DNA of 32,372 bases from Myxococcales bacterium (GTDB lineage: Bacteria > Myxococcota_A > Polyangia > Palsa-1104 > SHYY01): positions 1-32,372 of the forward strand of contig JAJXSP010000004.1 of NCBI GenBank assembly GCA_021784515.1, given 5' to 3'. Below, piece after piece: positions 28,451-31,748 of this stretch. The stretch's first letter is position 1, and each line of letters begins with the position of its first letter. The notes under the pieces were generated by a model, which saw only the letters and a program-made list of their open reading frames with translations, made no database searches and was not told the origin of the DNA. The position numbers were made by a program, and so were the translations under genes.

Positions 28451-29742
28451 CGGAAACGCGCCTGCCATGTCACCCACTCCTCGCACGTGTCGCCCGGCCG
28501 GCACGAGGGCACGCCCGGCCACGCCGTCGCCGCGTCGCACAGGAGCTGCGCCGGGTCGCAGGGCGTCGGCGCGCGCGCCACGCGGTCGAGCGCCTCCACC
28601 CGCACCTGCACCAGCTCGTCGAAGTCGAAGTCGCCCGGGTCCAGCTCGAGCGTGTTCAGGCCGGACATTGGCAGCGCACGCCACGCCGGATCCGACTCGC
28701 GCCACAGGGACCACCGGAACTGCGCCGTCGAGGGGCCGTTCGGGTTGGGGAACCCGTCGAGGTCGTCGAGCACGCGCGTCACCGCGAACTGCGCGGGCTG
28801 CGTCCGGTCGAGGACGTACAGCAGCCCGGGCGCGGGATCGAAGCCGTCCATGCACGGCGGGCGATCGGGCGCCAAACGGAAGGTGATCGGGGGCGCGGTC
28901 TGCCCGTCGCCGGCGACGGTCGCCGGGGAGCGCATCGCGCCGTCGTCGGCCACCACCTGGACCGAGTACTCGCCCTCGACATCGGGCGCCACGCACACCG
29001 TCTGGCCGGTGGTGACAACGCTCTGCCCCGCGCCCGGCGGCGCGGCGTCGCACGGGCCGGCCCACAGCGTCGCCTTCGTGCTCCCCTGCGGCGGCGTCAG
29101 CGTCCAGGTGAAGGCGATCGTCTCGATCGGCTTGCAGTCGGCGTCGGCGTCGGCGGCGAGCGCGTCGAGTCGCACCGTCCCGCCGGCGGGGTGATCGCCG
29201 CACGGGCCGGGCGGGTCCGCCTGCACCGACGGCAGCGGCGGCGCGTCGGCCACCCGCAGCGTGAGCCGCGCCGGCGAGGAGCGCGCGCCGTGGGGATCGA
29301 TCGCCACCAGCTCGACGACGACTTCGCCCGCCTCGTCGAGCTGGAGGCGGGCGTGGCCGAGGTCGTCGATGCGGAACTCGACGCCGGTCACAGACGCCGC
29401 GGGGTGACCGTCGATCGACCATTCGAAGGTGAGCCGCGCCGCATCGCCCTGGTCGGGGTCGCTCGAGCCCGACGGATCCAGCTCCACCGTCGCGCAGCGC
29501 ATCGTCAGCGACACGGCGCCGTCGCCGTCGGGCATCGGGCCACCGACCACCGCGAGCGCGGCCGTCGGCGCCTGGTTGATCGCGCCGATGAAGAGGCAGC
29601 CGGCGGCGGCGAGCGCGACGCCGGCGAGCGCGATGGGGGCGAGCGGGATCACGGCGCGTGCTCGTCGAGCAAGCGCCGCGCCACGGACGCCCTCGTCGCG
29701 GCGGCGAAACGCCGCGAGACCGGATCGCGACAGCGGCGTCAT
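28447..29742 (-). CDS. Lipoprotein with PKD-like domain(s)
   Basis: LAAAGC lipobox; ATVELDPSGSSDPDQGDAARLTFEWSIDG; ATG overlaps the stop of the upstream kinase (ATGA). Confidence 0.75.
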   Translation of the reverse strand: MTPLSRSGLAAFRRRDEGVRGAALARRARAVIPLAPIALAGVALAAAGCLFIGAINQAPTAALAVVGGPMPDGDGAVSLTMRCATVELDPSGSSDPDQGDAARLTFEWSIDGHPAASVTGVEFRIDDLGHARLQLDEAGEVVVELVAIDPHGARSSPARLTLRVADAPPLPSVQADPPGPCGDHPAGGTVRLDALAADADADCKPIETIAFTWTLTPPQGSTKATLWAGPCDAAPPGAGQSVVTTGQTVCVAPDVEGEYSVQVVADDGAMRSPATVAGDGQTAPPITFRLAPDRPPCMDGFDPAPGLLYVLDRTQPAQFAVTRVLDDLDGFPNPNGPSTAQFRWSLWRESDPAWRALPMSGLNTLELDPGDFDFDELVQVRVEALDRVARAPTPCDPAQLLCDAATAWPGVPSCRPGDTCEEWVTWQARFR

Positions 29743-31748
29743 GGTTTCGCGCATTCGAGCGGGTCGTCGCGCAGCTGGCACTCGCCGGCTGGGATGTCGA
29801 TCGCCGCGCGGTCGATCAGCTGCCCCTCCTTGTAGAGGAGCGCCTCGCGGCTGATGCCGGGCGGGAGGCGCGCCGCGCCGCCGTCGTGGAGCGGGGCGCC
29901 GCCCGCGATCCGCACCGCGTCGCCGCGGCGCAGGCGCACGTGGACCAGCGTGTCGCCGAGGAAATCGATCGTTACCTCGACGGGCTGGCCGGCGGCGACG
30001 GTGAATCGCTGCGCCTTGCGCGCGCCGCGGGGGCCCTCGCAGGCGACCTCGTGCGGGCCGGGCGGGAGGCGCAGCCGCTGCCCCTCGCCGATCGCGCGCG
30101 CGCCGTCGACGCGGCCGTTCATGCAGTAGGGGCGGGCGAGGAGGTGCAGCTCACCGTCGGGGGGAGGGGAGGGCGGGTTTTCGGGGGGCTGGGGTGGTTT
30201 TTCGGACGCCTTCGGGCTTCTGGGGGGACGGTCTGTCGCTTCTTCGCCGGCGATCGGGCCAATTGGATTTGGGGCATGGCGGCGCGAAGACACGAAAGAC
30301 GCGTCCCCCGCCTTTTCGGGGGAACGATGTGGTCTTTCAGACGTCTCCGGGCTTCTGGGGGGACGGTATTTCGTTTCTTCGCTTGCAGTCGAGCCAATTG
30401 GATTTTGATTGGGGTGTTGCGAAGAAACAAAAGACGCGTCCCTCGTCTTTTTGGGGGAACGAGGTGGTCTTTCTGGGGGAGATTGTGTTTCGGGTGTCTT
30501 CGGGCTTCTGGGGGGACGGTCTGTCGCTTCTTCGCCGGCAATCGGGCCGATTGGATTCAGGGTTGGGCGAGGCGAAGAAATCAAAGACGCGTCCCTCGTC
30601 TTTTCGGGCGTCTTCGACAGGCCGTGGAGGGCAGTTGCCGCCGTCGCTGCTACGACGATGGACACCGCCGCTGCGAGGGCGAGTCGCCGGAATCGGCCGC
30701 CGCGGCGAGCGCGATCGAGGAGCGCGCGCGCGGCCTCGTCGTCCGGGCGCCAGGCGAGCAGGCGGTTGACCTGCGCCATCGCGCGCGCCACCTCGCCCGA
30801 CGCCAGCGCCGCCTCCGCCTGCGCCCGCGCGGAGGCGATGACGCGCCCCTCGACCTCGGCATTCCACGCCGCCGGGTCGGCGAAGTAGCGCGCGATCTCG
30901 CGGTCGAGCTCCCCGAACCCGTCGGCGCGCAGCCCCTCCTCGAGCGCATCGCCCACCGCCGTCGCATCGGCGAACCGCTCCTCCGGCGTGCGCCGGAGGC
31001 AGCGCTCGATCGTCCGCTCCAGCCACGGCGGCACGCGCGGGTTCTTCGCCGTCGGCGGCGCGTGCTCGGCGCGGTGGATCTTCGCCAGCAGCGCCAGCGG
31101 CTCGCGCGCCGAAAACGGCAGCACGCCCGTCGCCAGCTGGTAGAGCACCGTGCCGAGCGAGAAGAGATCGGAGCGCGCGTCCAGCTCGCCGCCCTCGGCC
31201 TGCTCGGGCGACATGTACGCCGGCGATCCGATCACCGCCCCCGTCGCCGTCATCGTGGTGTCCATCGTCGCCATCCGCGCGATGCCGAAGTCGCAGAGCA
31301 CGACGCGCCCGCCCTCGTCGACCATCACGTTCTCGGGCTTCACGTCGCGGTGCACGATCCCCGCGGCGTGCGCAGCGCCGAGCGCCCGCGCGAGCTTCAC
31401 GCCGATCATCGCCGCCGCCTCGGGCAGCGGCGCCCCGCTCTGCGACAGGAACTGCTTCAGCGTCGGGCCCCGGATCAGCTCGGTCACCAGGTAGGCGGGG
31501 CGATCGCCCTCCTCGGGCGCGTAGTCGTGCACCGCCAGCACGTTCGGGTGGCGCAGCGCCGCCACCGCGCGCGCCTCGCGCGAAAAGCGCGCCGAGCCCT
31601 CCTTCTTCTCGGCGAGCGCCGGGTGCATGAGCTTGAGCGCGACGGTGCGCCGCAGCTCCTCGTCCTCGGCGCGGTACACCGTGGCCATGCCGCCCTGCCC
31701 GAGCTGCTCGAGGATGCGGTAGCGCCCGACCCGTTCCGGAGCGGCCAT
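29739..31748 (-). CDS. Transmembrane Ser/Thr protein kinase with repeat-bearing extracytoplasmic linker and PEGA-like C-terminus
   Basis: GRYRILEQLGQGGMATVYRAED, IVHRDVKPENVMV, CDFGIARM, AYMSPEQAEG; TM LALAAAVSIVVAATAATAL; then three ~45-aa repeats. Confidence 0.93.
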   Translation of the reverse strand: MAAPERVGRYRILEQLGQGGMATVYRAEDEELRRTVALKLMHPALAEKKEGSARFSREARAVAALRHPNVLAVHDYAPEEGDRPAYLVTELIRGPTLKQFLSQSGAPLPEAAAMIGVKLARALGAAHAAGIVHRDVKPENVMVDEGGRVVLCDFGIARMATMDTTMTATGAVIGSPAYMSPEQAEGGELDARSDLFSLGTVLYQLATGVLPFSAREPLALLAKIHRAEHAPPTAKNPRVPPWLERTIERCLRRTPEERFADATAVGDALEEGLRADGFGELDREIARYFADPAAWNAEVEGRVIASARAQAEAALASGEVARAMAQVNRLLAWRPDDEAARALLDRARRGGRFRRLALAAAVSIVVAATAATALHGLSKTPEKTRDASLISSPRPTLNPIGPIAGEEATDRPPRSPKTPETQSPPERPPRSPKKTRDASFVSSQHPNQNPIGSTASEETKYRPPRSPETSERPHRSPEKAGDASFVSSRRHAPNPIGPIAGEEATDRPPRSPKASEKPPQPPENPPSPPPDGELHLLARPYCMNGRVDGARAIGEGQRLRLPPGPHEVACEGPRGARKAQRFTVAAGQPVEVTIDFLGDTLVHVRLRRGDAVRIAGGAPLHDGGAARLPPGISREALLYKEGQLIDRAAIDIPAGECQLRDDPLECAKP
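30194..30610 (-). repeat. Intragenic in-frame tandem array of three palindrome-rich repeat units
   Basis: Units (+ strand) 30194-30328 and 30329-30463 (both 135 bp, ungapped, roughly 80% identical by eye) and 30464-~30610 (with an 18-nt insertion). Encode [K/G]xRDAS[LF][IV]SS-x5-NPIG-[PS][IT]A[GS]EE[AT][TK][DY]RPPRSP[KE]. Confidence 0.9.

Follow-up and report, generated by a model that had tools for sequence, protein, structure and literature searches.

A gene for a Ser/Thr protein kinase in a Myxococcales genome carries, in the linker behind a transmembrane-like segment, three consecutive homologous units rich in palindromes, raising the question of whether this stretch is an expanded piece of protein or a nucleic acid element that the protein tolerates. 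The reading reached here, to which we assign a probability of about 0.8, is that each of the units is a copy of a non-autonomous palindromic element, hairpin-forming and protein-coding, which is confined to its lineage as far as tested and tolerated in loops and linkers.

Three units in the linker of a kinase gene

In the window (the whole stretch of 32,372 nucleotides analysed), the kinase gene occupies positions 29739–31748 of the complementary strand, as an open reading frame of 669 aa with a kinase domain (PF00069, E 7.8e-45) followed by a TM-like segment, the repeat-bearing linker and a C-terminal domain. The three homologous units described in the original prediction are present in this linker, within positions 30205–30612. 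When a 124-nt ungapped reference at 30197 was used, further copies were found at 30332 (79%) and 30485 (85%), so that successive units start 135 and 153 bp apart. The first two units thus agree with the 135 bp of the original prediction, and the third lies 18 bp (6 codons) beyond that spacing, with the frame kept. With the covariance model R1 (see below), copy 1 was placed at 30205–30323 (101 bits, E 4e-20), copy 2 at 30340–30458 (111 bits, E 1.9e-22), starting 135 bp past copy 1, and copy 3 at 30493–30612 (112 bits, E 1.2e-22), starting 153 bp past copy 2. All three lie on the + strand, antisense to the kinase, and on the kinase strand they code for SPEKAGDASFVSSRRHAPNPIGPIAGEEATDRPPRSPKAS, SPKKTRDASFVSSQHPNQNPIGSTASEETKYRPPRSPETS and KTPEKTRDASLISSPRPTLNPIGPIAGEEATDRPPRSPKTP, respectively.

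As had also been noticed, the stretch is richer in AT, with the GC content going from about 0.77 in the surroundings to 0.55–0.61 over the repeats, and several frames stay open through it on both strands (+30194–30769, −30119–30541 and −30337–31026 in the list of open reading frames). In a tree of the copies, the three from the kinase group together (support 93/98), and so the triplet most likely derives from one insertion that was then duplicated locally; a single insertion in a repeat-prone linker behind the TM segment would have been amplified to three tandem copies. The triplication altered the length of the kinase linker, a change for which any role is hypothetical.

Three tandem copies in one linker, with a Ser/Thr/Pro/Lys-rich peptide that fits a disordered spacer, could also be produced by an ordinary protein-level expansion of the linker, favoured by selection because it serves as a spacer or accepts phosphate. 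Such an expansion is very improbable given the distribution and the pattern of change of the repeat, as detailed in the following sections.

A family of dispersed copies in the source genome

When the source assembly (5.5 Mb, 555 contigs, completeness 95.5%) was searched by blastn with the 417-bp kinase stretch, 42 matches were obtained on many contigs. The alignment of 37 copies, fetched with their flanks, revealed a core of about 119 bp that reads GACGTCTTCCACACGC TGGGGGGACGGTCTTTCGTTTCTTCGC, a variable loop and GGGGCGAAGAAACAAAAGACGCGTCCCTCGTCTTTCGGACGTC. The 119-position model R1 was built for a search of the genome and identified about 60 distinct places, many of which are listed for both strands in the match table; copies beyond the fetched stretches are known through these genome searches only. 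As many copies lie at contig ends, the true copy number is probably higher. Copies at or near an end were seen on contigs C555, C207, C140, C494, C476, C417 and C153, and the repeat probably breaks the assembly. Three other copies (C159:214, C315:123 and C555:9543) are nearly identical in sequence, with an upstream flank common to C315 and C555 and a downstream flank common to C159 and C315, which suggests a larger duplicated segment.

Genes were called with a simple home-made finder based on codon usage and trained on the same contigs. Among 64 catalogued copies, 42 were intergenic, 10 lay across gene ends and 12 were inside ten unrelated genes, as would be expected of the mobile element that had been proposed. 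Pfam searches confirmed most of these hosts, namely the large subunit of carbamoyl-phosphate synthase (CarB), UvrC, a UvrD-type helicase, a DinB+FGE-sulfatase (EgtB-like) protein, a CheR with STAS, a BadF/BadG activase with DUF2229, an SLBB/4Fe-4S protein and the kinase with its three copies (PF00069); the match was weak for a transglutaminase-core protein, and one protein had no domain match. Thirteen copies were located within 60 bp of gene 3′ ends in the same orientation as the gene. Nine intergenic copies were inspected for split genes and none was found, the flanking proteins, where assignable, belonging to different genes. The competing reading named in the original prediction, an ordinary expanded protein linker confined to this kinase and its orthologues, is thus contradicted by the occurrence of the sequence at more than 40 intergenic sites and in nine unrelated genes besides the kinase.

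R1 had no match in any of 37 relatives, among them one genome of the same genus (80% complete) and one of the same family, and blastn of the relatives agreed except for a single partial match of 38 bp (E 7e-5) in a same-class genome. Searches of plasmids and phages gave no match to the element, and the same was true of named species genomes and of left-arm pattern scans of genome and viral contig collections, sets from which the source genome may be omitted. The element peptide had no match in PHROGs. A sub-threshold match to the Rfam family Fibro-purF (E 0.5, 17 vs. 60 bits) was rejected.

A long hairpin with compensatory changes

The supported fold consists of a single long hairpin, with an imperfect stem of 22 bp and a variable loop, plus a weaker inner hairpin. 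The long stem sets GGGACG, GTCTTT and GTTTCTTCGC against GCGAAGAAAC, AAAGAC and CGTCCC; in copy 2, it extends approximately over positions 30358–30442 (+ strand), with GGGACGGTATTTCGTTTCTTCGC as left arm, the loop, and GCGAAGAAACAAAAGACGCGTCCC as right arm. Within the conserved stem (columns 29–51/92–115 of alignment A1), 96.5% of the cells were paired, and both sides had changed at five stem pairs, notably with GTCTTT/AAAGAC becoming GTCCTT/AAGGAC or GTGTTT/AAACAC. The covariation score, in which cells are counts of sequences and not independent events, was 0.159 for this stem, compared to a mean of 0.120 in shuffled alignments (0 of 500 reached it) and to values of 0.080 or lower when the partner strand was slid.

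The copies of the window mostly folded better than shuffled sequences on both strands, with z values of −3.2 (+ strand) and −3.6 (− strand) for copy 2 and, on the mRNA strand, of −3.2, −3.6 and −2.75 for the three kinase copies. Folding and covariation across the genome-wide family, as had been suggested for collected copies, thus bear out the long-range stems of the original prediction. In contrast, the short hairpin AAAGACG/CGTCTTT, also predicted, was found in many copies but lacks covariation, as its score was reached by 190 of 500 shuffles. Support is therefore limited to the long stem of 22 bp and does not extend to the short hairpin.

Weak matches to the model revealed sub-families in which the arms are swapped and the ends unchanged (for example CTTGACTTTCGC/GCGAAAGTCAAG and CTTTCCTTTCGC/GCGAAAGAAAAG), a sub-family with a mini-hairpin (ATCTCGGCG/CGCCGAGAG) and a variant in which GGGACA/TGTCCC replaces GGGACG/CGTCCC. 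As the arms change while the ends remain constant, palindromy is maintained while the sequence changes.

Several other repeats were observed beside the element. One of them, a sister element of 99 bp, shares the ends of the main element but has a different stem (the CTTGACTTTCGC/GCGAAAGTCAAG one); it occurs at L037:1020–1243 and L023:787–1180, where it adjoins the main element in opposite orientation, and also in L081, L082, L084 and L085. The ends of the element run into tandem 9-bp units (such as GCGGTCGTC/GCGGACGTC), seen in the flanks of L009, L013, L019 and L035 and, for example, from G000:C153:6377 onward; these units have expanded to large numbers on one side of the element or on both, and their nine bases keep the reading frame. 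Finally, 6-bp repeats (GTTCCC/GTTCTC) adjoin several copies (L020:896–4441, L039:1–1689, L041:1923–3653 and L016) and code for (NG/NE)n runs in host proteins.

A covarying stem could also be that of a structured regulatory RNA, such as a 3′-UTR hairpin or a riboswitch-like element, dispersed by selection for regulation. Many copies lie directly past stop codons on the same strand, and G-U pairs slightly exceed A-C ones on the + strand of the element (12 vs. 4 pairs), both in agreement with such a role. Nevertheless, we consider it improbable, as the host and neighbour genes are functionally unrelated, Rfam gave no match above threshold (best E 0.5) and transcription of the in-gene copies yields the opposite strand.

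Lineages, strand and frame of the copies

A tree of 46 copies separated one group with nine of its ten members in genes (seven genes; hereafter lineage A) from another with 33 of 36 members outside genes. The in-gene label required 5 changes on the tree, compared to 10.9 when shuffled (0 of 500 reached 5), although many branches were weakly supported. The near-confinement of one lineage to genes is not predicted by random insertion plus a simple filter alone; the in-gene lineage may be the older one, with genes as the only places where it has survived, or the two lineages may differ in insertion preference. With sister strains, this split makes age and insertion preference directly testable.

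The element was antisense to the gene in all ten host genes, and nearly all in-gene copies share one frame, which gives RKTRDASFVSSPR...PIxPIAxEETKDRPPRxxKTS. The copy in the SLBB/4Fe-4S gene (L078) has a frame shift in its second half, and in both this copy and that of CarB a one-base deletion shifts the frame ahead of the SFVSS block. This pattern of one strand and one frame rests on ten genes from the home-made finder, most of them with confirmed domains. As all six frames are open in most copies, openness alone does not explain the choice of frame. The frame used is the most hydrophilic of the six (GRAVY −1.28) and has the lowest hydrophobic peak; the pattern is consistent with removal of the other strand and frame outcomes by selection.

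Selection on the peptide itself was also considered, and it is unsupported, as pN/pS was about 0.86 among lineage-A in-gene copies and the changes in the in-gene copies were distributed almost evenly over codon positions (43/46/55). The intergenic copies gave 28/27/46, with a marginal excess at the third position. The feature that is maintained appears to be the hairpin, not the peptide. The pN/pS value, together with the covariation of the stem at the DNA level, also argues against the expansion of an ordinary protein linker. A further proposal, that lineage A is coding-adapted and propagates preferentially into open reading frames by a mechanism dependent on orientation or frame, leaving the sister lineage intergenic, is tentative and rather unlikely.

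Empty sites in orthologous genes

An empty site, which an inserted element should leave in orthologues of a host gene, was found in CarB. The CarB loop of the same-genus genome (G001) reads NDITRPRGEGADGQPWQPASFEP, with the element absent, and that of the source is 37 aa longer, with the element within. In the relatives other than the same-genus one, the loop reads NDIT(R/K)ETPASFEP, with NDITRETPASFEP in G002 and G006, and it is also without insert in G004. Similarly, two EgtB-like orthologues (L184 and L185) have a short unrelated linker without insert. A 7-bp direct repeat (CGGCCTC) is found on either side of the CarB insert. It was examined as a possible target duplication but is probably due to chance, because the loop of the same-genus CarB differs.

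For the kinase, the comparison gave a more complex picture than an empty site. In the same-genus orthologue (L101:1024–2859, 47–50% identity over the flanks), the corresponding position of the linker is taken up by a simple repeat and by a different dispersed palindrome of about 41 bp, present in about 30 copies in that genome. This palindrome (L101:2231–2271) reads CTCCCTCTACCGCTTGCGGGAGAGGGTCGGGGTGAGGG and is translated as LPLPLAGEGRGEG. As unrelated palindromes occupy the same linker, the kinase linker is a tolerant site that was independently invaded by unrelated repeats.

Probable mode of spread and candidate movers

From the distribution of the copies we infer that the element has been mobile, and the interpretation of the units as a mobile palindromic element is supported. 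The features expected of this class were found together: a dispersed hairpin-forming repeat of 100–150 bp (119-bp core, about 60 copies), in-frame copies in unrelated genes, intergenic copies and orthologues without the insert. The element would have inserted broadly across the genome, with insertions surviving between genes or in genes that offer a tolerant loop, linker or tail; in genes, the surviving frame would give a soluble peptide of about 40 aa and low hydrophobicity, other outcomes being purged. We thus infer that an enzyme acting in trans inserts the element and that purifying selection then retains a tolerable strand, frame and site, the likeliest movers being a transposase supplied in trans or a nuclease that recognises single-strand hairpins.

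One such mover would be a RAYT, with the hairpins acting as single-strand substrates of a Y1 transposase, as in REP/BIME-type repeats, and the in-gene copies being incidental. The position of hairpins often near gene 3′ ends in the same orientation (the 13 copies within 60 bp) and the opposite orientation within some clusters (C320, C68) fit this proposal, as do the UvrC and UvrD-like helicase hosts, given that intragenic REPs are known in uvr, UvrD/Rep helicase and other repair genes (PMC3733652). However, no match to PF01797 (Y1_Tnp) was found in the source genome at E 0.001 (assembly about 95% complete), while control genomes did match, and the element, with its 119 bp and 22-bp stem, is larger than the GTAG- and CGTC-tagged REPs, of 20–40 bp and with stems of 8–9 bp in the CGTC group (PMC3733652). 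A RAYT-driven origin is thus unlikely.

Alternatively, the element may be a MITE, that is, a short, internally deleted derivative of a DDE transposon mobilised in trans, which would account for the conserved ends with swapped inner arms and for the intergenic bias. This possibility is held with low confidence, since the long palindrome does not reach the ends in the form of clean terminal inverted repeats, and neither a clear target-site duplication nor a full-length relative was found: the aligned flanks showed no consistent duplication, the ends blurring into the 9-bp CGTC units, and a search through the conserved 5′ end for a longer autonomous copy returned short elements only, among those inspected. 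The MITE reading rivals the others only as regards the mover and is compatible with the description of the element as a protein-coding palindrome.

Comparison with known systems

When protein-coding palindromes were first described, they seemed peculiar to Rickettsia, and a few further cases followed. A high-GC genome of 5.5 Mb with a one-strand pattern in ten genes and a same-genus empty site provides an independent system, in which one can ask how selfish DNA yields new protein segments and how insertions within genes are filtered.

As outlined in PMC2229807 and PMC10969869, the palindromic elements of Rickettsia (RPE-1 and others; Ogata et al., 2000) are repeats of 105–150 bp with a long stem-loop, inserted in frame in conserved genes with a conserved peptide that host proteins tolerate. 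The present element resembles them in size class, long stem-loop, dispersal in intergenic sites and in frame within unrelated conserved genes, an encoded peptide shared among copies and its probable tolerance by host proteins; it differs in its high-GC genome outside Rickettsia, in-gene copies all on one strand, the triple tandem and the arm swaps of its sub-families. The RPE-like reading proposed at the outset holds as an analogy in mode of occurrence, homology in sequence to RPE families being unlikely given the organism and the base composition. The palindromes that PMC2996958 cites for Wolbachia and Methanocaldococcus jannaschii are, by that description, likewise stand-alone inserts adding codons to housekeeping genes, in different organisms.

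With the GTAG/CGTC REPs the element shares its palindromic nature, a mostly intergenic location, proximity to gene 3′ ends and some copies in repair genes, and with the CGTC group in particular the CGTC at its ends and the lack of a known transposase (PMC3733652). Its imperfect stem of 22 bp and its loop of about 40 nt set it apart from REPs, and by the features tested it is neither a RAYT-type nor a CGTC-type REP. The 107-bp Correia element of Neisseria and the enterobacterial ERIC are hairpin MITEs of about 100–130 bp whose open frames have been found fused in frame to genes (PMC2229807), a likeness in size, hairpin and coding that does not extend to their defined terminal inverted repeats and target duplications, neither of which was found here. 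Within this set of systems, the element is a new family of an already known class, the protein-coding palindromes.
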